This document shows positions 4,727-37,869 of a stretch of 45,642 bases of DNA, in pieces (the first letter of the stretch is position 1; every line of letters begins with the position of its first letter). Below the pieces are notes generated by a model. The model was not told the origin of the DNA. It did not search any database and worked only from the letters and a program-made list of their open reading frames with translations. A program made the translations under genes and the position numbers. The stretch is taken from the NCBI GenBank assembly GCA_011176615.1, contig DUEG01000014.1, forward strand, positions 1-45,642, in the 5' to 3' direction. The DNA is from Anaerolineae bacterium. GTDB lineage: Bacteria > Chloroflexota > Anaerolineae > Anaerolineales > UBA11858.

Positions 4727-5233
4727 ATGACCGGAATGGATAGTTTGTTCTTAATTTTTGCTGTGATTACGCTGATTTCTGCTTTTTTGGTGGTAACCAC
4801 GAAGAACTTATTTCATGCTGCCTTATGGCTGATCATGACATTGTTTGGAGTTGCAGCAATCTATGTGTTACTAAATGCTTTTTACTTGGCGGTAATACAA
4901 GTAATTGTTTATATTGGTGCAATTGCGATTTTGATGATCTTCGCGATTATGCTTACCCAAAGAGTTATGAATCCTTCTGGGAGGATATTTAATAAGAATT
5001 GGATAATCGCTGCTCTTTTAGGGGCTTTTATGTTTATTGGTCTGGTTATCATAAGTATGCAAACTGGTGCGAGCAAGACAACTTTGCCTCAGATCAGTGG
5101 TCAACTGGACACAGTATCTGAACTCGGTCAAGCACTGGTTTCTCCGAATGCTTATGTGATCCCGTTCGAGGTAGCGTCCGTGTTGCTTCTCGCAGCACTT
5201 ATAGGCGCTATCTTTGTCTCACGAAAGAGATGA
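4727..5233 (+). CDS. nuoJ: NADH-quinone oxidoreductase subunit J
   Basis: Membrane subunit of complex I (168 residues) with five hydrophobic segments. The third-helix region YIGAIAILMIFAIML matches the NuoJ helix with the pi-bulge that couples quinone reduction to the proton path. The start ATG at 4727 follows a weak GGAGTGG sequence. The stop at 5231-5233 is 13 bases before the nuoK start, so J and K are likely co-translated. Confidence 0.95.
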   Translation: MTGMDSLFLIFAVITLISAFLVVTTKNLFHAALWLIMTLFGVAAIYVLLNAFYLAVIQVIVYIGAIAILMIFAIMLTQRVMNPSGRIFNKNWIIAALLGAFMFIGLVIISMQTGASKTTLPQISGQLDTVSELGQALVSPNAYVIPFEVASVLLLAALIGAIFVSRKR

Positions 5234-5246
5234 ATTGGAGGAAAAA

Positions 5247-5555
5247 GTGATAACACTCAATTGGGTCCTAATTTTCTCAGCCGCCCTTTTTTCCATTGGG
5301 CTATTCGGTGTTCTCGCGCGGCGGAATGCGGTTGCTATATTAATGGGCATAGAACTTATGCTGAATGCAGTTAATGTTAATTTAGTTGGGTTCTGGCGTT
5401 TTTCAAATCCTGCGGTAATCACCGGTCAAGCGTTTGCTGTGATCGTCTTCGCGGTGGCTGCTGCAGAAGTCGCTGTTGGATTAGCACTTGTTATTTCGAT
5501 ATATCGTCGTCGAAAGACAATTGCGGCTGACGATATTGACCTTATGAAATGGTAA
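5247..5555 (+). CDS. nuoK: NADH-quinone oxidoreductase subunit K
   Basis: Small three-helix membrane subunit, 102 residues from the GTG at 5247. This start is preferred over the upstream in-frame ATG at 5214 because GGAGG sits at 5237-5241, the length then fits the family, and the upstream start would overlap nuoJ. Both proton-path glutamates are present: E36 in GIELMLN and E74 in AAAEVAVG. The next gene, nuoL, starts 10 bases after the stop. Confidence 0.95.
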   Translation: MITLNWVLIFSAALFSIGLFGVLARRNAVAILMGIELMLNAVNVNLVGFWRFSNPAVITGQAFAVIVFAVAAAEVAVGLALVISIYRRRKTIAADDIDLMKW

Positions 5556-5565
5556 CGGAGAAGTT

Positions 5566-7749
5566 ATGGGAATAAAGACGTTGATCTGGCTTTTACCCCT
5601 TCCGCCATTATTGGCATTTTTTATCATTGTCCTCTTCACAAATCGTAAAAAGGCTTTAAGTCATACGATTTCAGTTGGTGCTGCTTTTCTATCATGGCTT
5701 GGAAGTATGGTGGTTTTTTTCTTCGCTGTTCAGAAAGGTGCTCATCAGTTGGGAGAACATCCATTTGCATCTTCTATTAATTGGCTGCCTTTGGCGGATA
5801 AATGGTTAAAAATCGGTGTAATGGTAGATCCGTTAACGGCTGTCGGACTGTTCTTTGTGGCATGGACAGTTTTTATGATCTTTATTTACAGCATCGGATA
5901 TCAAAATTACGGACAACCAAAGGGCGATCACGATCAAAAAGGGTTGCCCCCACACGGTGCTACTGTCATTGACGAGCAAGGACACAAACACAAAGTCCCT
6001 TCCATTGAACCTATGTATTCCCGCTTTTTTGCATTTATTGGGCTGTTCGCTTTCGGGATGTATACACTGATTATTTCCGATAATATGCTGACGCTTTTCG
6101 TTGGATGGGAGATTATGGGGTTGTGTTCATACTTACTAATTGGTTTTTGGTATGCGAAACCCTCCGCGCGGGCTGCGATGATCAAAGCGTTCATCACCAC
6201 ACGTGTGGGCGATGTGTTCATGCTATTAGGAATTGGTGCTCTTTATGCCTTTACAAAGACATTGAACTTCAGAGAGATATTCTTTAATGAAGAATTGCTT
6301 CATAAAATGGCGACTACGCCTTCTGGCTTCTTTGGGCTCTCAGTTGCTGGGTTGATTGGTATCTTGTTATTTATTGGTACCGTAGGTAAATCCGCTCAAT
6401 TCCCATTGCACGTATGGCTACCAGACGCGATGGAAGGTCCAACGCCGGTTTCAGCGATGATCCATGCTGCAACCATGGTTTCTGCGGGCGTTTATATGGT
6501 CATTCGAATGTTCCCTTTGCTATCCGCAGGAGCACAGCATGGAGAGTTAACTTCGCCAATGATGGCAATGGCATTCATTGGCGCGTTCACTGCATTATTT
6601 GCTGCATCCATCGCCCTAGCGCAGAATGATATTAAGAGGGTTCTCGCGTTTTCCACAATATCACAATTGGGTTATATGATCGCTGCACTGGGAATTGGCG
6701 CCTATGTGGCTGCTATCTTCCATTTATTAACGCATGCGTTTTTCAAGGCTTTGCTCTTTTTAGGTTCTGGGTCGGTCATTCATGGCATGGAACATGGTAT
6801 CTATCATGTTGATGAGGATATAGACCCACAAAATATGTTCAATATGGGTGGTTTAAGGAAGAAAATGCCGATTACATTCTGGACCTTTTTAGCGGGTGGT
6901 CTGGCACTTTCCGGATTTCCAATTATCACAGCAGGTTTTTGGTCAAAAGATGAGATTTTAGCAGATGCATTCTCGAACGGTCACTGGATGGTATTTGGAA
7001 CGCTAGCCTTTGCTGCTCTACTTACAGCGTTTTATACAATGCGTCAAATCACTCTGACATTTTTAGGAAAACCAAAAACTAGAGCAGCAGGACATGCACA
7101 AGAAACACATTGGACGATGACTCTTCCATTAGTTGTCTTAGCGATCTTTGCGATTGGGTTCGGTTGGGTGGGTATCCCTGAACAATTCCCATTAATTGGG
7201 GGATTGATACCCAATTGGCTCCATGATTTCGTGATAACCACACTCCCGCACCATTTGGGTGAGGTTGGGTTTAACTGGGCTCCCTTACTAACATCCTTGG
7301 TAGTAGCCTTAGGTGGCTTGTTCTTGGGCTGGTATGTTTATAAGGATGTGCCTGCTGGCGCGGAAGACCCCTTAAAGAAGCCGATGGGATTTGTTTATAA
7401 AGTACTTCAGAACAAGTATTACTTCGATGAACTTTATGACATTATTTTTATAAAACCAGCCATTTGGTTCTCAGAGACGGTCTCTTATTTATGGATGGAT
7501 AGAAAAATTATTGATGGCATCTTGCATTTTATAGCGAGAATTGCTTTCCAATTAGGCACTATCTTTCGGGATTGGTTTGACGTTCCAGTGGTTAATGGAT
7601 TTGGGGATTTTGTAGGTGAAAGTACGAAAAAGATCGGGAAATCCCTGCGAGTGGTTCAAACTGGACGAGTGCAGCAATATATGTTGATTGCCCTTGTAAT
7701 CACGGTTGCAACACTTTTCTACTATCTATTTTCAGTTTTCACACCGTAA
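5566..7749 (+). CDS. nuoL: NADH-quinone oxidoreductase subunit L (extended form)
   Basis: Distal antiporter-like proton-pumping subunit of complex I. Key residues are present: E182 in TM5 (VGWEIMG), K275 in TM7 (GKSAQF), the HAATMV motif near 300 and FWSKDE in TM12. The protein is 727 residues against about 610-660 usually. One insertion is a hydrophilic His/Asp-rich loop at about 115-150. The other lies in the C-terminal lateral helix, where a 27-residue unit is repeated (W643-M-D and W670-F-D, each followed by a hydrophobic pair and D/N-G) before the terminal LRVVQTGRVQ motif and last transmembrane helix. This fits a NuoL that spans an extra NuoM. Confidence 0.96.
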   Translation: MGIKTLIWLLPLPPLLAFFIIVLFTNRKKALSHTISVGAAFLSWLGSMVVFFFAVQKGAHQLGEHPFASSINWLPLADKWLKIGVMVDPLTAVGLFFVAWTVFMIFIYSIGYQNYGQPKGDHDQKGLPPHGATVIDEQGHKHKVPSIEPMYSRFFAFIGLFAFGMYTLIISDNMLTLFVGWEIMGLCSYLLIGFWYAKPSARAAMIKAFITTRVGDVFMLLGIGALYAFTKTLNFREIFFNEELLHKMATTPSGFFGLSVAGLIGILLFIGTVGKSAQFPLHVWLPDAMEGPTPVSAMIHAATMVSAGVYMVIRMFPLLSAGAQHGELTSPMMAMAFIGAFTALFAASIALAQNDIKRVLAFSTISQLGYMIAALGIGAYVAAIFHLLTHAFFKALLFLGSGSVIHGMEHGIYHVDEDIDPQNMFNMGGLRKKMPITFWTFLAGGLALSGFPIITAGFWSKDEILADAFSNGHWMVFGTLAFAALLTAFYTMRQITLTFLGKPKTRAAGHAQETHWTMTLPLVVLAIFAIGFGWVGIPEQFPLIGGLIPNWLHDFVITTLPHHLGEVGFNWAPLLTSLVVALGGLFLGWYVYKDVPAGAEDPLKKPMGFVYKVLQNKYYFDELYDIIFIKPAIWFSETVSYLWMDRKIIDGILHFIARIAFQLGTIFRDWFDVPVVNGFGDFVGESTKKIGKSLRVVQTGRVQQYMLIALVITVATLFYYLFSVFTP

Positions 7750-7775
7750 AAACCGGAATATTTATCGAGGACTGT

Positions 7776-9335
7776 GTGGAGCGATTTATGAGTTTTCTTG
7801 ATAACAATTTACTGACATTGATTTTGTTTTTTCCAGTGGCATCTTCATTGGTCTTACTTTTTCTTCCCGGCAAAGAGAAAAAGTTAATTCGCTGGGTTGC
7901 CTTGTTGGCGAGCCTAGTTCCTCTTATTTTGTCTATTATTTTATGGCTGAACTTTAAAACGGGAATAAAAGGATTTCAATTCGAGGAACATTATGTCTGG
8001 TATAGCGCGATTAACTCGTCTTACCATCTTGGGATTGACGGGATTTCGCTTACGATGGTGTTATTGACTACGTTGCTTATACCAATTGCAATCTTGGCAT
8101 CCTTCAACATTGAGGAAAATGTCAAGGCTTATATGGTTCTGTTCCTACTATTGGAGACCGGATTGCTTGGTGTTTTCGTTTCCTTAGATTTACTTCTTTT
8201 CTTCGTTTTTTGGGAAATAGGTCTTGTCCCCATGTATTTCCTGATCAATCAATGGGGTTCAGAGAAAGGTGAACGTGAATTATGGGGTGGCATTAAGGTC
8301 AAGGCTAGAACTTATGCATCGTTTAAGTTCCTGATATACACCATGACGGGATCTTTGGGGCTTTTGCTTGCTATCCAGATGATTGGTGTTGTTTCTGGCA
8401 CTTTTGATTTACCGACGTTATTTGCAAGTTGGACGACATTGAACCAAAGTTTATTTGGTTTACCAATCGAAACTGTGAAAACAATCGCTTTTTGGGCATT
8501 TACAATCGCTTTTGCATTGAAAGTTCCTGTTTGGCCTTTTCATACGTGGCTTCCTGATGCCCACACAGAGGCGCCTACTGCAGGATCAATGATTTTGGCA
8601 GGTGTTCTGCTAAAACTTGGGGCATATGGATTTTTGCGGCTTGTTCTCCCACTATATCCGGTAGAATCCAAGCATTATGCAGGTGCGTTGGCTTTTCTTG
8701 CAACAATGTCCATCATCTTTGGGGCGTTTAGCGCTTTCGGACAGCGCGATTTCAAACGTCTCGTTGCATATTCTTCAGTGAACCACATGGGATTTGTCGT
8801 TTTAGGTATCGCAGCCGCGGCGCGGGTACAAGGGACTGAGAATGCTGTAATTGCTCTTAATGGTGCAGTATTACAAATGTTCAATCATGGTATATCTGCA
8901 GCAGGGATGTTCTTTTTGGTCGGTGTGATTTATTCCAGGACTCATACACGGAACCTGGATGATTATGGCGGTTTGTTTACCTTGGTTCCTGTTTATGGTG
9001 GCATATTAATCTTTACGTCTATGGGCGCCCTTGGATTACCTGGTTTGAATGGGTTTGTTTCCGAGTTTCTGGTTGTCAGAGGATCCTGGCCAATCTTCTC
9101 GGTTTATACAGCCTTTGCAATGGTTGGTTTGTTATTTACAGGTGCGTATGTTCTCAAAGGAATTAAACAAGTCCTGCATGGTCCTTTAAATGAAAAATGG
9201 ATTGGACATTTATCTGAAATAAGTGCACGGGAGGTAATCGTTATTGCACCTTTGATGGTGATCATGCTGTGGATTGGTGTTTGGCCGGCATGGATTTTAA
9301 ATGTTATCAATCGTGCTGTAGAGGTGTTATTCTAG
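7776..9335 (+). CDS. nuoM: NADH-quinone oxidoreductase subunit M (first copy)
   Basis: Antiporter-like proton-pumping subunit. Numbered from the GTG at 7776, the essential charges are intact: E147 in TM5 (FWEIGLVPMY), K249 in TM7 (ALKVPVWPFH), K280 in TM8 (GVLLKLG) and the TM12 Glu in GFVSEF. An insert of about 20 residues, rich in Lys, Arg and Gly, follows TM5 (about 161-180). The start could equally be the ATG at 7788, which has TGGAG 6 bases upstream and would give the more typical N-terminus; the difference is four residues. It is the fifth gene after nuoA and is followed by a second nuoM. Confidence 0.95.
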   Translation: MERFMSFLDNNLLTLILFFPVASSLVLLFLPGKEKKLIRWVALLASLVPLILSIILWLNFKTGIKGFQFEEHYVWYSAINSSYHLGIDGISLTMVLLTTLLIPIAILASFNIEENVKAYMVLFLLLETGLLGVFVSLDLLLFFVFWEIGLVPMYFLINQWGSEKGERELWGGIKVKARTYASFKFLIYTMTGSLGLLLAIQMIGVVSGTFDLPTLFASWTTLNQSLFGLPIETVKTIAFWAFTIAFALKVPVWPFHTWLPDAHTEAPTAGSMILAGVLLKLGAYGFLRLVLPLYPVESKHYAGALAFLATMSIIFGAFSAFGQRDFKRLVAYSSVNHMGFVVLGIAAAARVQGTENAVIALNGAVLQMFNHGISAAGMFFLVGVIYSRTHTRNLDDYGGLFTLVPVYGGILIFTSMGALGLPGLNGFVSEFLVVRGSWPIFSVYTAFAMVGLLFTGAYVLKGIKQVLHGPLNEKWIGHLSEISAREVIVIAPLMVIMLWIGVWPAWILNVINRAVEVLF

Positions 9336-9387
9336 GCAAATCGTTAAGGTAAAAATTCACAAGACCTTGACGAGTATGAGGTGAAAT

Positions 9388-10860
9388 ATGCAGTTTCCTG
9401 TCATCAGTGTTATCGTTTTTACACCAATAATTACTTCATTATTACTTTTAATAATGCCTGGAAATCGAAAAACAGAAATCCGCGTTACATCATTAGGAGC
9501 TGCAGCGCTGGATTTGTCTTTATCAATTTGGCTATATTTTTCCTATAATGTGTCTGCCGGTGGGTATCAATTTGTCGAACAGTATAACTGGCTACCTCAA
9601 TTTGGAATATCCTATCATGTAGGCGTGGATGGACTGAACACCCCCTTGGTCTTACTCACGGGTGTGGTTATGTTTACGGGTGTCCTGATTTCCTGGGGTG
9701 TAGACGATAGACCCCGAGAATTTTTTGCATTTCTGTTTATTTTGGCAACAGGTGTATTTGGCGTTTTTGTATCCTTAGATTTGTTCATGCTTTTCTTTTT
9801 CTATGAAATCGCTGTCTTTCCAATGTATCTGTTGATTTCGACTTGGGGTTGGAAAGTAACGCGTGAATACGCTGCAATGAAATTGACTTTGTACCTTTTC
9901 ATAGGCTCCGTTGTTGCTTTAATTGGCGCATTAGCAATGTATTTCAATTCTGGCTTGGGTTCATTTGACTTAATAACGCTGGAAACAGCCAACTTTTCCG
10001 TGGGATTTCAGCGGTTTTGGTTTCCGTTTGTTTTTATTGGATTCGCAGTGCTTGGTGGTCTTTTCCCTTTCCACAACTGGAGCCCTGACGGTCATGTGGC
10101 TGCACCAACAGCAGTGTCCATGTTTCACGCAGGTGTTTTGATGAAACTAGGCGCCTTTGCATCCTTGAGGATTGGTATCATGCTCCTGCCCGAGGGCGCA
10201 AAATTCTGGATGCCTACTATCATCTTGCTTACACTGGTGAATGTGGTCTATGGTGCTTTTATTGCAAGCGTTCAGACAGATTTTAAATATGTTGTCGGGT
10301 TCTCTTCGGTTTCCCATATGGGACTTGTGGCAATGGGATTTGCTACTTTGAATAGAGAAGGATTGATTGGATCGGGTGTCCAGATGTTCTCGCATGGTGT
10401 GATGACAGCACTTTTCTTTGCTGTTGTAGGAATGATCTACGATAGGGCGCATACCCGACAAATCCCTGAATTAGGAGGATTTGCCAAGAAAATGCCACTT
10501 GTAGCGGTAGCATTTATTGTTGGCGGTTTAGTATCGATGGGTATGCCAGGCTTTTCGGGATTTGTTGCGGAGTTCCCCATTTTTATGGGTGTCTGGGAAT
10601 TTAAACCATGGATTGCGATTGTAGGAGCCATTTCGATTGTGATAACGGCATCCTATATTATTCGAATTATTAGCAGCGTTTTCTTTGGGAAAATGCCAGA
10701 ATCTTATGCTGACCATATCACCGATGTGAAAGTATTGGATAAAGTGGCTCTGATATTTCTTTCTGTGCTTTTAATTGTTATAGGCGTTTTTCCTTCAATT
10801 ATGGTGCCAATGGTTGAATCGGGTGTTGAAAACATCTTGCGCCTATTAGGAGGTGCATAA
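9388..10860 (+). CDS. nuoM: NADH-quinone oxidoreductase subunit M, second copy (NuoM')
   Basis: A second full-length NuoM-type subunit (490 residues) with the family motifs GVDGLN, YEIAVFPMY (E140 in TM5), HAGVLMKLGA (K253 in TM8) and GFVAEF (TM12 Glu). The TM7 lysine is missing. The GFAVLGGLFPFH stretch has Leu at position 222 (codon 10051-10053), whereas the first NuoM, NuoL and NuoN of this operon all have Lys five residues before the PFH or PLH proline. It may be structurally incorporated but pump differently or not at all, which is inference. Its TAA abuts the GTG start of nuoN. RBS and ATG spacing at 9388 are normal (GAGGTGAAAT). Confidence 0.94.
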   Translation: MQFPVISVIVFTPIITSLLLLIMPGNRKTEIRVTSLGAAALDLSLSIWLYFSYNVSAGGYQFVEQYNWLPQFGISYHVGVDGLNTPLVLLTGVVMFTGVLISWGVDDRPREFFAFLFILATGVFGVFVSLDLFMLFFFYEIAVFPMYLLISTWGWKVTREYAAMKLTLYLFIGSVVALIGALAMYFNSGLGSFDLITLETANFSVGFQRFWFPFVFIGFAVLGGLFPFHNWSPDGHVAAPTAVSMFHAGVLMKLGAFASLRIGIMLLPEGAKFWMPTIILLTLVNVVYGAFIASVQTDFKYVVGFSSVSHMGLVAMGFATLNREGLIGSGVQMFSHGVMTALFFAVVGMIYDRAHTRQIPELGGFAKKMPLVAVAFIVGGLVSMGMPGFSGFVAEFPIFMGVWEFKPWIAIVGAISIVITASYIIRIISSVFFGKMPESYADHITDVKVLDKVALIFLSVLLIVIGVFPSIMVPMVESGVENILRLLGGA

Positions 10861-12312
10861 GTGTTCGGAAGCATTAATACATCTATGATCTTAGCAATCT
10901 TGCCTGAGATAATGCTGTTTATCCTAGCGGGTTTTGTATTTGTTTTCGACTTGGTGTGGGACGATAGCCAGCGCAGAAATCTAGGTTGGATATCAGCAGG
11001 TGGTTTTTCTCTCATTATCATGATTAGTTTGATGCTTGGTACACCGGGTAGTGATAGTGGATTGGTCTGGGGCGGCATGCTCCGCCATGATTGGCTAGGC
11101 TTTGCATTCAAGATGTTGTTCTTATTCGGGGCAACAATAACTGCATTGTTTGCTATGGATGTGGAAGATTTGGGCAAGAAAGGCGAATTTTATTTGCTTT
11201 TGATATTCTCCACATTAGGGATGACATTGATGGCGTCTTCAAGCAATTTAATTATGCTGTATCTATCTATCGAAGCGACATCACTGCCTCTTTATATTCT
11301 TGCGGGCTTTTTCAAAGACGATGATAAATCAACAGAAGCGGGATTTAAATATTTTCTGTTTGGAGCGATGGCTTCAGCCATTATGCTTTATGGGTTCAGC
11401 CTATTATACGGATTTAGCGGTACGACAGATTTAGATGCCATTGCTGGTGTGATAAAAGCAGGAGGCATGAATCCAGTTCTTCTTGTTGGTACTCTTTTAA
11501 TGATATTAGTGGGTTTTGGTTTCAAGATATCAGCAGTACCATTCCACTTTTGGGCTCCAGATGTGTATGAGGGCGCTCCAACAGTTGTTGCAGGATTTTT
11601 ATCCACCGCTTCAAAAGCTGCAGGCTTTACCGTCCTTATCCGAGTGCTTTTGACATCATATGCGCCAGCGAGCGATACTTGGATGATGGTTTTAGCAATT
11701 ATTTCTACACTCACAATGACATTGGGAAATACACTCGCACTTGCTCAAAAGAATATCAAACGCTTGTTAGCATATTCATCCATCGCACACGCTGGTTATA
11801 TACTGATTGGCGTTGTTGCTATCTCGGAACTGGGTATAACTGGTTCTATATTTTATATAATTGTCTATTTGATCACGAATCTCGCAGCCTTCGGGATTGT
11901 ATCTGTAGTCGGGCGAATTACGGGATCGGATGAGATTAGCGCTTATGATGGGTTAAGCCGTCGATCTCCTTGGTTGGGGTTAGCGATGCTTGTTGTGTTC
12001 TTATCACTTGCGGGAATGCCTCCGTTTGGAGGATTTATTGTTAAAGTTCTTGTGCTTGCATCTGCTGTAAAGGCGAAACTGTTTTGGCTGGCGTTTGTGG
12101 GTATTCTAAATTCAATTATTGGTTTGTACTACTATCTGATTGTGTTGAAACATGTATATTTGTATCGGTCAGAGAATGAGCAAGTAGAAATTCCTGTAAC
12201 AAGACCATATGCAATTGGGTTAATTGTATTAACGATTGGGATTATCTTACTTGGTGTAGTCATTTCTCCATGGTTTAATGTCTCGACAATAGCGGCAAAA
12301 GTTCTATTTTGA
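10861..12312 (+). CDS. nuoN: NADH-quinone oxidoreductase subunit N
   Basis: Antiporter-like subunit next to NuoK (483 residues). The TM5 Glu (YLSIEATSLPLY), TM7 Lys (GFGFKISAVPFHFW), TM8 Lys (STASKAAGF) and TM12 Lys (GGFIVKVLVL) are all present, so it should be pump-competent. The GTG start directly follows the stop of the second nuoM and has GGAGG about 8 bases upstream. It is the last nuo gene of the run; the ATP synthase genes follow after 89 bases with their own promoter. Confidence 0.96.
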   Translation: MFGSINTSMILAILPEIMLFILAGFVFVFDLVWDDSQRRNLGWISAGGFSLIIMISLMLGTPGSDSGLVWGGMLRHDWLGFAFKMLFLFGATITALFAMDVEDLGKKGEFYLLLIFSTLGMTLMASSSNLIMLYLSIEATSLPLYILAGFFKDDDKSTEAGFKYFLFGAMASAIMLYGFSLLYGFSGTTDLDAIAGVIKAGGMNPVLLVGTLLMILVGFGFKISAVPFHFWAPDVYEGAPTVVAGFLSTASKAAGFTVLIRVLLTSYAPASDTWMMVLAIISTLTMTLGNTLALAQKNIKRLLAYSSIAHAGYILIGVVAISELGITGSIFYIIVYLITNLAAFGIVSVVGRITGSDEISAYDGLSRRSPWLGLAMLVVFLSLAGMPPFGGFIVKVLVLASAVKAKLFWLAFVGILNSIIGLYYYLIVLKHVYLYRSENEQVEIPVTRPYAIGLIVLTIGIILLGVVISPWFNVSTIAAKVLF

Positions 12313-32554: not shown

Positions 32555-33037
32555 ATGTCTATTTACGTTGGGTTAGGTACAAACATGGGTAATCGCGAGG
32601 AGAACCTCACGGCAGCATTGGATATTCTTGAACGAAATTCTATTTTAAAGAAAAAATCCTCAATCTATGAAACAGACCCATGGGGATATGAAGAACAACC
32701 GGCTTTCTTAAATCAGGTTGTGGAAATTGAGGTTAATCTTGAGCCACTTGATTTGCTTATGTTTTTAAAGTCGATTGAGGCGTTACTTGGTAGGAAGCCA
32801 ACATTCCGAAATGGCCCACGCACAATCGATTTGGATATCCTTTTCTACGATGATAGAATCATTGTAGAAGACCAAATTGTCATTCCACATCTCTTTATCG
32901 AAGAGAGAGCATTCGTTCTTGTACCAATGGCAGAAATTGCCCCTGGCTATAAGCATCCCATATTAGGGTTGACAATCGCGGAATTGTTGAAACAAGTTGA
33001 TAGCTCGAGTGTTCATTTATACAATCCACGATTATAA
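32555..33037 (+). CDS. folK: Dihydropterin pyrophosphokinase (HPPK)
   Basis: Catalyses pyrophosphate transfer from ATP to 6-hydroxymethyl-dihydropterin in folate synthesis. It has 160 residues, the family's usual size. It begins with YVGLGTNMGNRE and has the signature GPRTIDLDILFYDD with its Mg-binding aspartates. The ATG has no clear Shine-Dalgarno and lies about 12 bases after a TATGAT box, so a leaderless start is possible. It is followed after 23 bases by the NuoL-like gene on the same strand, with no other folate genes nearby. Confidence 0.95.
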   Translation: MSIYVGLGTNMGNREENLTAALDILERNSILKKKSSIYETDPWGYEEQPAFLNQVVEIEVNLEPLDLLMFLKSIEALLGRKPTFRNGPRTIDLDILFYDDRIIVEDQIVIPHLFIEERAFVLVPMAEIAPGYKHPILGLTIAELLKQVDSSSVHLYNPRL

Positions 33038-33060: not shown

Positions 33061-34644
33061 GTGTATGGGATAATATTCCCAATTATCTTCTATTTTTTAT
33101 CGGCAATATTAGTTGCAATATTACCGCGCTATATCAAAAGACCAGCAAGCGTATGGTTTATTGGGGCTACTGGCGCAATTGTCTCTTGGTTGATTACGCT
33201 TGGATTAGGAATTCATCAATCTGCTAATTGGATAATTTCTTTTGGGAATGTTTCCCAATTCTTGGGGAAAGAATTTGCGTTTATTTTTTTGGTTGATAAC
33301 ATTTCATGGGGATATTTGGTTTCAATCACAACGTTGATATTAGCAGTTCTTTTGACTGAATCATCCTATCATGGCACAATTGTTTCTAATGGATGGGCTT
33401 ATACGCTGGGACTAGGTGGTGTTGGCGTGTTTGCTGTAACTTCAGGGAATTTATTAACTTTCTCTTATACCTGGACATTGCTCAGCGTCATTATATTAGT
33501 AATCCTGATAACAACCGCAGGCTCCCAAAGAATTAGAAAAACAGCCATTATTAATTTTGTCATCCAAATGCTTGGAATTTCTTTATTAATTTTAGGAATG
33601 ATGAGTCTTGGTGATCGTGTCTCCCTGGATGCTTTTATGGAGGTTCCACAAAATATCGCAATTTTATTTATCCTGGCAGCTGGCGCTCTTTTAGGAGTGA
33701 TCTTGCCAGATGACCAACTTTTTATCGAAAGAAATATGAAAAGAGGGTTTGGCACAGTATTACGTTTGATTCCTGTTACCAGTAGTCTCGTGTTTATTTC
33801 TAGGTTACAGTTTTCTCCTTCCAATGATATGAAGGTCATGTTATTGATATTAGTTATCTTCATAATAGCGATATATGGATCATTTCATTGGATTCTTGAA
33901 AGAAATTTGTTTGATGGAAGACTTGCTTGGATTATGGTTGGAGCATCATTAACCCTGATTACTAAATTATTTGGCTTAAATAACCTCACTATCTTGCTTG
34001 GACAGGCGATCATATTTAGTAGTGCATTAATATTTCTTACGAAAATAACATCCCCTCTAATTTATAAGATTACTCGGATGGGATTGGTTGTAATATTAGG
34101 ATTCCCTCTGGTAATCGGAAATGGATTCGTTCTAACGGTGTTGAATCAACCAGAATTCCCATTGTTTTATAAAATCCTCTTGATCACACTATTTAATCTC
34201 TTGTTTAGTTTGCAAATATTTGGGTATTTTATGCATTCTTACCATATCAATAAGAATTATGGAGAAATAAAACCTTATGGCAATCTTTTGAGTGTTATTG
34301 GATTAATATTGATTCTATTAGTTCAACTCCTTACGATCATATTGGGTTTTGTAAATGGTCAATTCGTTTTTTTAAGATGGTGGGTTGGGATGGTGCCACT
34401 TGCTATTAGTATAGGCTTTTATTATTTTTATTTACACAATGTTGAGAAGAAGCCTTCAGGGAGATATTTGGGTTATGTCGATAAGGTTTTTTCTTTAGAT
34501 TGGATTTACCAAATAATTTTAAGGACCTATAAATTTCTAGGAGGAATAATTCATCAGGCAACGATGGTAATTGAGGGGGATGCAGGCTTTTTATGGGCGG
34601 TGTTAATTGCGGCACTTTTAATTGCGATTTTTTCCAAAGGATAA
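33061..34644 (+). CDS. NuoL/HyfB-like membrane protein lacking proton-path residues
   Basis: A 527-residue membrane protein with about 14-15 hydrophobic segments and a C-terminal amphipathic stretch (DKVFSLDWIYQ) plus last helix, as in NuoL/HyfB subunits. Aligned by eye to NuoL, the TM5 Glu position is Thr139 (TFSYTWTLL), the TM7 Lys region (about 205-217) has no Lys, and the HAATMV motif is replaced by IPVTSSLVF. The charges that carry protons are gone although the frame is intact. GTG start at 33061, GGAG about 8 bases upstream. It heads a coupled trio with the next two genes. Pumping is unlikely; function unknown. Confidence 0.75.
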   Translation: MYGIIFPIIFYFLSAILVAILPRYIKRPASVWFIGATGAIVSWLITLGLGIHQSANWIISFGNVSQFLGKEFAFIFLVDNISWGYLVSITTLILAVLLTESSYHGTIVSNGWAYTLGLGGVGVFAVTSGNLLTFSYTWTLLSVIILVILITTAGSQRIRKTAIINFVIQMLGISLLILGMMSLGDRVSLDAFMEVPQNIAILFILAAGALLGVILPDDQLFIERNMKRGFGTVLRLIPVTSSLVFISRLQFSPSNDMKVMLLILVIFIIAIYGSFHWILERNLFDGRLAWIMVGASLTLITKLFGLNNLTILLGQAIIFSSALIFLTKITSPLIYKITRMGLVVILGFPLVIGNGFVLTVLNQPEFPLFYKILLITLFNLLFSLQIFGYFMHSYHINKNYGEIKPYGNLLSVIGLILILLVQLLTIILGFVNGQFVFLRWWVGMVPLAISIGFYYFYLHNVEKKPSGRYLGYVDKVFSLDWIYQIILRTYKFLGGIIHQATMVIEGDAGFLWAVLIAALLIAIFSKG

Positions 34645-34647
34645 TTG

Positions 34648-35247
34648 ATGAATCAATTAACAATTTTGCTTCGGTCAACAATATTCGTTATTGGAGTTAC
34701 CAGTATCCTATTGGCAGCATTGAATGACTTAAGGTTAAAAATAATTATCTTAAGTATTCAATATGTCGGCGTATTTATTCTTGTCGCGCAATCGTGGCCA
34801 GTTAATCTGGCTCTGGTTAAGGTTGTCGCGGGATGGATGACTTGTGCAGTACTTGGAATTACTGTGAAAAAAAACAGATATAGGGAAAAGCGGGTAACCC
34901 GAGAAAATATTTCGGGCATTATATTCCGTTTTCTTGGAACTGTATTAATTGTCCTTACGATAATTGCAGTAACCCCAACACTCAGTAAATGGTTTATTGC
35001 TGTGAATACCGAACAATTATTTGGCGGAAGTTTACTAATTGGCATTGGTTTACTAATCATTGGGATGTATTCATCTTCAATGGATGTCTTTATTGGATTG
35101 CTCACTTTGCTTTCTGGATTTGAGATACTTTATTCAGCAATGGAAATATCAGTTCTTGTAGCGGGGTTATTAGCAGCGATTACGCTTGGAATTGCTCTGG
35201 TTGGGGCTTATTTGTATATTTTGGAAGCAACAGGTGATGCAGCATGA
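34648..35247 (+). CDS. HyfE/NuoK-like membrane protein
   Basis: A 199-residue protein with about six membrane helices. The C-terminal third resembles NuoK: the GFEILYSAMEISVLV stretch lines up with NuoK's GIELMLNAVNVNLV and keeps the glutamate as E159. The second NuoK glutamate is not conserved. Two-part organisation and size recall HyfE of hydrogenase-4-type complexes. The ATG at 34648 follows the upstream stop by 3 bases with AAGG at a good distance; a TTG one codon earlier is possible. It overlaps the next gene by 4 bases (ATGA). Confidence 0.65.
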   Translation: MNQLTILLRSTIFVIGVTSILLAALNDLRLKIIILSIQYVGVFILVAQSWPVNLALVKVVAGWMTCAVLGITVKKNRYREKRVTRENISGIIFRFLGTVLIVLTIIAVTPTLSKWFIAVNTEQLFGGSLLIGIGLLIIGMYSSSMDVFIGLLTLLSGFEILYSAMEISVLVAGLLAAITLGIALVGAYLYILEATGDAA

Positions 35248-36626
35248 GTTCAGCGCACATTTGGATTTTTACGCCTCTTGTTATCGCTGTAATCCTATTA
35301 TTATTGAGGAGATATATAAAGTTAAGTAACCTAATAAGTATCATAACTGCATTTATATTGGCTGCTCTTGCATGGTTGCTTCCAATCGGACAAGGATTCA
35401 CATTATTTGGTAAAAATATTCTGATACCTGGCGAATTTTTTGTTGTGGGCAGAAAGTTCGTCATTGATCCGCAGAATCTGTCGTTAATTGGTTTGGTTTA
35501 TCTGGCATTGGCTTTTTGGTATGGCGCTACATTGTTTTTTGAGATTGATGAACTATTTTATCCTCTTAGTCTCACGATTGTAGCGATGGATGTATCTGCC
35601 ATCTCTGTGAAGCCATTCTTATACGCTGCATTAGCCTTTGGGATTGTAGGGTTGTTGAGCATTTTCTTGTTGGATCAGTCAAAATATTCAGTTCGCCAAG
35701 GAAGTATAAGATTACTAACTTATCAAATCATAGGGATGGCATTTTTGTTACTGGCTGGTAGGGAATTGGATTTATTTAATCCCCGCGAATTTGATATTAA
35801 CGAAGCCGCGCTGGCACTTGTTTTCATCAGCGGTGGGATAATATTTTTACTTGGAATTTTCCCATTTCACTCATGGATTCCGATGATCGCAAAAAATACA
35901 AATCCTTATATCGCTGGTTTCGTTTTTTCAACATTACCTGGATTTATGTCTTTATATATTCTGAATTTTATACTTGAGTTTGAGTGGTTACGGGAAATTG
36001 CCTTGTTTTTCGATCTTCTTCGTATTGGAGGAATCGTTATGCTCCTTTTTGGGGGAATTTGGGCCGCGTTTCAAGACGATCTTCGTCAATTAATGGGATA
36101 TGCAGTACTTATAGAGATTGGTCGTTCGTTAATTGCATTATCGACCCAAATAGAGCCGACACGCTATTATGCTTTTTATATTCCAAGGTTGATTGGTTTT
36201 GGAGTATGGACATTGGCTTTGTACATGTTGTGCAAAAGGAAAGGAAGCTGCGATTTGTTATGTATACAAGGATTGGCAATAAAATTTCCACTACTGTCAT
36301 TAACATTATTGATTGCGATTTTCTCAATCGCTGGTGTACCTTTGCTTGCGGAATTCCCCATTATCTTATCGCTTTCTGATTTATTTAATGAATCTCACAG
36401 TATTATTACAATATCGTTGCTAGTGTCTAGCGGTGGTGTTTTACTGGCTGGTTTGCGTATATTGAACACAATGGTTGATTTCGAAAAGAGCGATGTTAAC
36501 GAAGAACAGGGGAGTAAGCAACTTGGATTAAATATCCTATTATTGTTAGGTTCATTTGCATTATTGGTGATGGGGATTGCACCACAATGGATTTATTCGA
36601 TGTTTGAGAGATTTCTATCCTTATGA
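35244..36626 (+). CDS. NuoN/HyfF-like membrane protein lacking proton-path residues
   Basis: A 460-residue protein with about 13-14 membrane helices. The fold signature of antiporter-like subunits is visible as IFPFHSWIPM (205-214), aligning with NuoN's PFHFWAPD. The TM7 Lys is Leu202, the TM8 Lys falls on Pro232 in STLPGF, the TM5 Glu position is non-polar near 130-133, and the TM12 Lys falls in the non-polar AEFPIILSL segment. It starts by a 4-base overlap with the upstream gene. It completes the folK-linked trio. The family call rests on motif spacing and is moderately sure; loss of the charges is read directly. Confidence 0.7.
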   Translation: MSSAHIWIFTPLVIAVILLLLRRYIKLSNLISIITAFILAALAWLLPIGQGFTLFGKNILIPGEFFVVGRKFVIDPQNLSLIGLVYLALAFWYGATLFFEIDELFYPLSLTIVAMDVSAISVKPFLYAALAFGIVGLLSIFLLDQSKYSVRQGSIRLLTYQIIGMAFLLLAGRELDLFNPREFDINEAALALVFISGGIIFLLGIFPFHSWIPMIAKNTNPYIAGFVFSTLPGFMSLYILNFILEFEWLREIALFFDLLRIGGIVMLLFGGIWAAFQDDLRQLMGYAVLIEIGRSLIALSTQIEPTRYYAFYIPRLIGFGVWTLALYMLCKRKGSCDLLCIQGLAIKFPLLSLTLLIAIFSIAGVPLLAEFPIILSLSDLFNESHSIITISLLVSSGGVLLAGLRILNTMVDFEKSDVNEEQGSKQLGLNILLLLGSFALLVMGIAPQWIYSMFERFLSL

Positions 36627-36705: not shown

Positions 36706-37869
36706 ATGAAAGAAGAACAAATAATCAAGAAACTGGAATGGCTTGATGACGAGCGCCGAAAAGATAAAAATGACATCACATCGCTGATGGAAAAGGTCAT
36801 TTCTCTTGAAGGACAATTGAAGGCAGTTGTTCAACAAAATCAAGAACTTATCGGTGAGATTTCAAAAATTAAATCAGGTATTGGTAGAGTAGATAGCCTC
36901 GAAAACGATATTTCCAGACAACGGATTGAGTTAACCCGCAAGATAGAATCTCTTGGAAAACAGCATGAAAAACAGCGGAAAGAGGCGATAAATGTTTTAA
37001 GTACCGAAATAAGGAATGTGGATAGGAATGTTGAGGAAGTTCGAAAAGAAATGACTCAATTTGTTGAAATAAAACGCGAACTTATCAATCGTAAAGATGG
37101 CGAGCAAAGGTTGACAAAATTGATAGCGGAATTGGGGACCGACGTTGAAGAGGTCAAAAGGAACGAGGAAGGGTTAAACAGAATATATCGCGTGATTGAA
37201 GATGGTCATAGACAAGAAATTAAAAGGATCACAGATCTCCAAGGGGAAGTTATTGCTCTCAGAAAAGGGGCTGATGAACATAGAAGTCGGCTTGATCTGC
37301 TAGATATCAATAATAAGAAAATTGAAACACGCTTGAATGAATTGATTGTGACTGAAAATGAAATGAAGACTGAGCAATCTGCATTTATGGAGAAGCAGGC
37401 ACTTGCTGAGGTTGAACGTGAACGTCTTTGGAAAGATTGGCAGACTCGTTTTGAGGCGATCGAAAAACAATCTATTGATATTGAGGAACAAATTACAGCG
37501 TTGGATACTACACGCCTCGTAATTGGACGAACGCAAGCGTCCGTTGAGAAATTATCCCAAAAAATTGAGCGAAGGTTAAACGAAGTCTTGGAAGTTCAGC
37601 GTTTAGGAGAGGACAGGTTTAGACAAGAATGGGCTACTTTTAAAGCAGACGACCAGAAACGATGGACAAATTATTTGCTTTCTCAGGATGAGCAAAGGGG
37701 AGAACTTGCCAGACATTTTGAGTTGTTGACTGAAAGGGTAACCTTGATAGAAGACCAAGTACAAGAATTGCAAGATGAGATTTCACATTCGTTGGAACAA
37801 ACTCAGAAGAGACTACAAAGCATATTTGCACTTATTCACGAATGGGTGACAGCATTTGAGAAACCTTGA
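36706..37869 (+). CDS. Long coiled-coil protein of unknown function
   Basis: A 387-residue, highly charged protein rich in Glu, Lys, Arg and Gln, with heptad-like spacing of Leu/Ile almost from end to end. There is no signal peptide and no membrane helix, so it should be cytosolic. The start ATG is preceded by GGAGAG. A slightly more aromatic segment (about 305-330, with WATF, RWTNYLL) breaks the coil before a last helical stretch. It resembles SMC- or septum-associated scaffolds in composition only; no family is recognised. It follows the NuoN-like gene by 79 bases and has its own promoter. Confidence 0.8.
   Translation: MKEEQIIKKLEWLDDERRKDKNDITSLMEKVISLEGQLKAVVQQNQELIGEISKIKSGIGRVDSLENDISRQRIELTRKIESLGKQHEKQRKEAINVLSTEIRNVDRNVEEVRKEMTQFVEIKRELINRKDGEQRLTKLIAELGTDVEEVKRNEEGLNRIYRVIEDGHRQEIKRITDLQGEVIALRKGADEHRSRLDLLDINNKKIETRLNELIVTENEMKTEQSAFMEKQALAEVERERLWKDWQTRFEAIEKQSIDIEEQITALDTTRLVIGRTQASVEKLSQKIERRLNEVLEVQRLGEDRFRQEWATFKADDQKRWTNYLLSQDEQRGELARHFELLTERVTLIEDQVQELQDEISHSLEQTQKRLQSIFALIHEWVTAFEKP

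Follow-up and report, generated by a model that had tools for sequence, protein, structure and literature searches.

A candidate three-subunit membrane complex with a NuoL/NuoN-like core and a redrawn charge axis in Anaerolineae

Three coupled membrane genes

In this study, we sought to explain a trio of membrane genes in a 45,642-nucleotide stretch of Anaerolineae DNA (the window), which had been singled out for resembling antiporter-like subunits of complex I that have lost their charges. Gene A (33061..34644, forward strand, GTG start) encodes a protein of 527 aa with the NuoL/ND5 fold; gene B (34645..35247, forward strand) encodes a seven-helix protein of 199-200 aa with a NuoJ/MbhD-like N-terminal half and a C-terminal half that is possibly NuoK-like; and gene C (35244..36626, forward strand) encodes a NuoN/MrpD-like protein of 460 aa. 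The preliminary description of an intact, coupled trio was accurate: in the window's ORF list all three frames are intact and run in one direction, B starts at TTG 34645 or ATG 34648, leaving 0-3 bases between A and B, and B shares its last 4 bases with C. Upstream of A lies a folK-like gene (32555..33037, forward strand), which adjoins the trio in 8 sampled loci and is probably an incidental neighbour. Downstream lies gene D (36706..37869, forward strand), encoding a coiled-coil protein that usually stands 3' of the trio in Anaerolineales.

The identity of A emerges from family profiles and structure. Neither Pfam nor NCBIfam gave a match for A, and a profile search against PDB sequences gave none either, so fold comparison was used instead. 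The A family profile aligns with NuoL at E=6e-10, and the AlphaFold model (pLDDT 83) has NuoL/ND5 as its best Foldseek match (E=3.6e-11, TM 0.72). Similarity to the Hyf profile is weak (E=0.0016), and at a threshold of E 1e-15 the A profile matched none of the canonical NuoL/M/N or Hyf controls. C belongs to the Proton_antipo_M proteins (Pfam PF00361, 1e-12) and matches the NuoN profile at E=6e-25; its family profile also picks up antiporter-like PDB chains, MBS and NuoN among them. The B model (pLDDT 92.8) has seven helices, the first three of which match the NuoJ profile (E=2.6e-7); weak PDB matches to MbhD and NdhG are in line with a NuoJ-like first half. The NuoK-like end of B is recognizable at the level of a GFExxY motif, without statistical significance, and B gave no significant match in Foldseek or against the one E. 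coli HyfE sequence used. Searches of Pfam and NCBIfam with all A and B members led to no consistent family. The original assignment of the three proteins to NuoL, HyfE/NuoK and NuoN can thus be kept for A and C, while B is better described as NuoJ-like in its first half.

Homology and gene order together show that A-B-C, as a predicted membrane assembly, matches the NuoL - NuoJ/K - NuoN core of complex I, group-4 hydrogenases and Mrp antiporters. Each of these relatives also differs from the trio. The folds of A and C and the N-terminal half of B recall NuoL, NuoN and NuoJ of the complex I membrane arm (NuoJ, K, L, N), but no NuoM, NuoH, NuoA or peripheral arm adjoins the trio, and residues of the proton wire are lost. 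Hydrogenase-4 (HyfB, HyfE, HyfF) belongs to the same superfamily and likewise has two large and one small membrane protein, yet no hydrogenase genes lie by the trio, the A-Hyf similarity is weak and that of B to HyfE is not significant. The MrpA-MrpC-MrpD core has NuoL-like, J/K-like and NuoN-like parts in the same order and, like the trio, lacks redox subunits. A and C fit the Mrp subunit set, while B has a NuoJ-like half and a second half that is possibly NuoK-like, at motif level only. Unlike in Mrp, however, the J-like part is fused to the small subunit B rather than to MrpA, the lysine is changed to Arg (A) or lost (C), and MrpE, MrpF and MrpG are not among the recurrent neighbours.

The window also contains a nuo cluster, NuoJ-K-L-M-M-N, about 21 kb from the trio; the earlier remark that no peripheral-arm gene is present is therefore correct for the immediate neighbourhood and does not extend to the window. 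This cluster (4727-12312) comprises NuoJ, NuoK, a 727-aa NuoL, two NuoM and one NuoN, an L-M-M-N arm with one antiporter-like subunit extra. A second L-M-N set of the same genome lies on contig C7.

Charge sites in the window copy and in the family

In profile alignments (hhalign), T139 of A aligns with NuoL E144, and L210 with K229. The codons from T139, the TM5 Glu site, to S142, the site of a TM5 Asp in the family, span 33475..33486, and that of L210, at the TM7 Lys site where nearly all relatives have Arg, is 33688..33690 (both forward strand). The window A thus has neither the family's Asp nor its Arg. L202, P232 and I374 of C align with NuoN K217, K247 and K395, and G133 falls at NuoN E133 in the joint alignment, so that the TM5, TM7, TM8 and TM12 charge sites of the window C read G133, L202, P232 and I374. 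B, by comparison, keeps K59, E160 and E167. The large subunits A and C share fold and profile similarity with the antiporter-like superfamily, and in the window neither has its TM5 Glu and TM7 Lys. Alignment by eye had given the same picture, with Thr139 and no TM7 Lys in A, and Leu202, Pro232 and non-polar TM5 and TM12 residues in C; proper alignment did not restore Glu and Lys to these sites. The absence of HAATMV was likewise borne out, since this motif and the TM11 His/Lys of NuoL are missing from A in the members displayed.

What does not carry over to the family is the proposed loss of every pumping charge, since most A proteins have an Asp/Arg pair and most C proteins a TM5 Glu and a TM12 Arg/Lys. 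Of 183 scorable distinct A proteins, 171 combine an acid at residue 142, three positions beyond the TM5 Glu site, with Arg at 210, the TM7 Lys site; column 142 holds D in 174 and E in 6, and column 210 holds Arg in 176. Both residues are lost in three proteins (the window's, L382 and L385), the acid alone in two and the Arg alone in seven, a joint loss with a Fisher p of 0.001, uncorrected for shared ancestry. Site 139 is Ala, Thr, Gly or Ser in most members. The TM8/TM11 residues of the canonical wire are missing from A throughout the sampled members, and, among the members displayed, a TM12 Arg is retained only in some outside Anaerolineales. In C, TM5 Glu is present in 107/146 and TM12 Arg/Lys in 116/146, TM12 being His or Arg in other class members; TM7 is Leu in 128/146 and Lys in none, and TM8 is mostly Pro or Gln. 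The charges of B are kept in 88-96% of members (K59 in 133/145, E160 in 128/145, E167 in 139/145). As read from these alignments, complete charge loss is a trait of this genome and, in part, of its family; the charge axis is redrawn family-wide and bleached further here.

A genus of the window's own family (g189; L057, L059, L087, L347, L348, L350 and L351) has kept the TM5 acid of A and replaced the TM7 Arg with His, Gly or Ser, and by sequence its A is an intermediate towards the window state. This further loss of Arg210 within the family could point to decay, in which the trio, functional in the family at large, would be on its way out of this lineage as selection relaxes, the more so as no other member has lost as many near-invariant A residues as the window's (5 of 10). 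We consider decay quite unlikely. The frames are intact, B has lost 0 of 12 near-invariant residues and C 1 of 25, and the window branch lengths of 1.87 for A and 1.24 for C fit the whole-tree lengths of 29.1 and 20.1; measured against C, the window's A does not sit on an exceptionally long branch.

Mutants of relatives give these substitutions meaning. In isolated complex I modules, proton conduction is blocked when Nqo13 loses its middle Lys or Nqo12 its terminal one, and runs faster when the ion-pair Glu is loosened (PMC11496545). Similarly, E133A and K217R of E. coli NuoN are mild, while K247A and K395A are severe (PMC13073174). In a growth model based on Mrp deletion, NuoL K229A had little effect, and the same holds for MrpA E113Q and K196A in sodium extrusion (PMC4938563), which makes the charges at these sites an imperfect guide to function. 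By these rules it is the middle and terminal residues, not the TM5/TM7 pair emphasized at first, through which the canonical wire of the trio would be broken family-wide, with Arg or His standing in for central lysines where these are not simply absent. We conclude that the wire is very probably broken and that proton pumping of the complex I type by the trio is unlikely, judging from the mutants of its relatives. Loss of canonical pumping with retention of the fold, first proposed for the window copy, accordingly describes the family as well, given that no sampled member has a Lys at TM7 of C or the TM8/TM11 wire residues in A.

Distribution, selection and gene neighbours

The trio is far from being confined to this genome. 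C is present in 93 of 101 Anaerolineales genomes (67 of the 69 good ones), and A in 35 of 36 Anaerolineales genomes of a phylum sample and, with a broader profile, in 237 of 396 Anaerolineae genomes. Outside Anaerolineales, 15 of the 18 loci read, from ten families, have A, B and C adjacent in the same order. Pairs from lineages other than the window's give dN/dS of about 0.09-0.29 for A, 0.11-0.20 for B and 0.11-0.34 for C. These surveys show the trio, by homology and gene order, to be widespread and old in the class, and indicate that it is under purifying selection, as measured in those other lineages; conservation of this kind, order- and class-wide and with dN/dS of about 0.1-0.3, is what had been anticipated. 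Six A homologues of families f7 and f14 (L195, L197, L199, L200, L393 and L394) stand alone, with no B or C alongside, and keep the Asp/Arg pair wherever it is readable.

A Proton_antipo_M protein is part of complex I, of Mrp and of group-4 hydrogenases alike. Four genomes, 95-99% complete, carry A and C and have no Proton_antipo_M protein other than the trio's C: G253, a single contig that is 99% complete, G358, G365 and G379, in the last of which C itself falls below the model threshold. Since no other such protein is there, the trio would not be a helper of complex I, Mrp or a group-4 hydrogenase in these four genomes, and, by this measure, it can apparently stand alone. That the trio supplies accessory or alternative subunits of complex I is suggested by the homology to NuoL and NuoN and by the two nuo clusters of the window genome; as a general role it is refuted by these genomes, in which the trio is present and complex I is not detectable, and as an explanation it is highly improbable.

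Among the neighbours, D lies on the same strand 3' of the trio in 43 of 43 located Anaerolineales cases. D is about 40% identical across Anaerolineales, with invariant E296, R299, W309, F312, W320 and E329, and it is found class-wide also without the trio. A gene for a SelB-like translation factor then follows D in 37 of 60 Anaerolineales loci (e.g. L072:2901-4799) and is absent from that place in the window. The position of D raises the possibility that the trio drives or gates the chemistry of a cytoplasmic partner to which it is coupled, in the way that DabB is to DabA, D being one candidate. DAB and DAB2 (DabA-DabB) offer a precedent, since there a NuoL-like subunit is used outside redox enzymes (PMC13144422). 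However, D occurs without the trio in G299, on another contig in G271, G148 and G289, and at a distance from A in other families; D was rejected as an obligate partner on the grounds of its presence without the trio and its lack of linkage elsewhere. No other partner recurs beside the trio, and no DabA-type Pfam match was found among its neighbours in the window or among recurrent neighbours. DabB2, moreover, retains most NuoL wire residues, and the trio consists of three membrane proteins. Coupling to a partner is, on balance, unlikely. DabA, hydrogenases and the small Mrp subunits are all missing from the annotated recurrent neighbours, and a search of open-licence papers yielded no description of an orphan L/N-type set in Anaerolineae.

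A possible ion conduit with an altered path

The best explanation, to which we assign a probability of roughly 0.4, is that the trio stands alone as a non-redox, Mrp-like ion conduit whose path has been altered. For the majority of members we picture A-B-C as a minimal secondary conduit or exchanger of ions, which would draw on gradients already in place instead of on a redox or hydrogenase partner. The path would follow a redrawn line of buried charge, formed by the Asp/Arg pair of A (TM5-TM7), the Lys and two Glu of B, and the TM5 Glu and TM12 Arg of C, and the ion pair of A might serve as a gate or lock. In this genome, where the pair of A and the charges of C are gone and B is intact, the remaining path would run along B and its interfaces, and the window copy may keep only part of the conduit function.

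A conduit is favoured by the Asp/Arg pair of A, present in 171 of 183 proteins and lost from both ends together in three, which with the conserved charges of B argues against a bare scaffold. Against a conduit, it is difficult to see how protons or cations would pass through A and C, given an Arg and hydrophobic TM7/TM8 sites; MrpE/F/G and other partners are lacking among the neighbours; and the window copy has persisted with most of the charges gone. The same features could be read as those of a non-transporting membrane scaffold, sensor or assembly platform, whose fold is kept for contacts with proteins or lipids and whose buried charges are structural. A has none of the middle and terminal wire residues, the TM7 Lys is absent from every C, the window and its family relatives tolerate the loss of remaining charges, and DabB2 is an example of a NuoL-like subunit serving a non-pumping complex (PMC13144422). 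A scaffold would nonetheless need less charge than A and B conserve, and we regard it as somewhat unlikely. The broader proposal, of a candidate three-subunit complex that is widespread in Anaerolineae, has no redox or Mrp partners, has exchanged its lysine relay for an Asp/Arg axis and serves a previously undescribed function other than proton pumping, has in our judgement an even chance of being correct.

Complex I research places the central lysines, together with the pair of TM5 Glu and TM7 Lys, at the centre of the antiporter-like subunits. A natural, class-wide trio that keeps the folds, replaces Lys with Arg and has no redox partner offers a ready way to find out which charges transport requires. 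Altogether, the trio points to a further use of an ancient membrane core in very abundant anaerobes, where it probably does a job that nobody has described.
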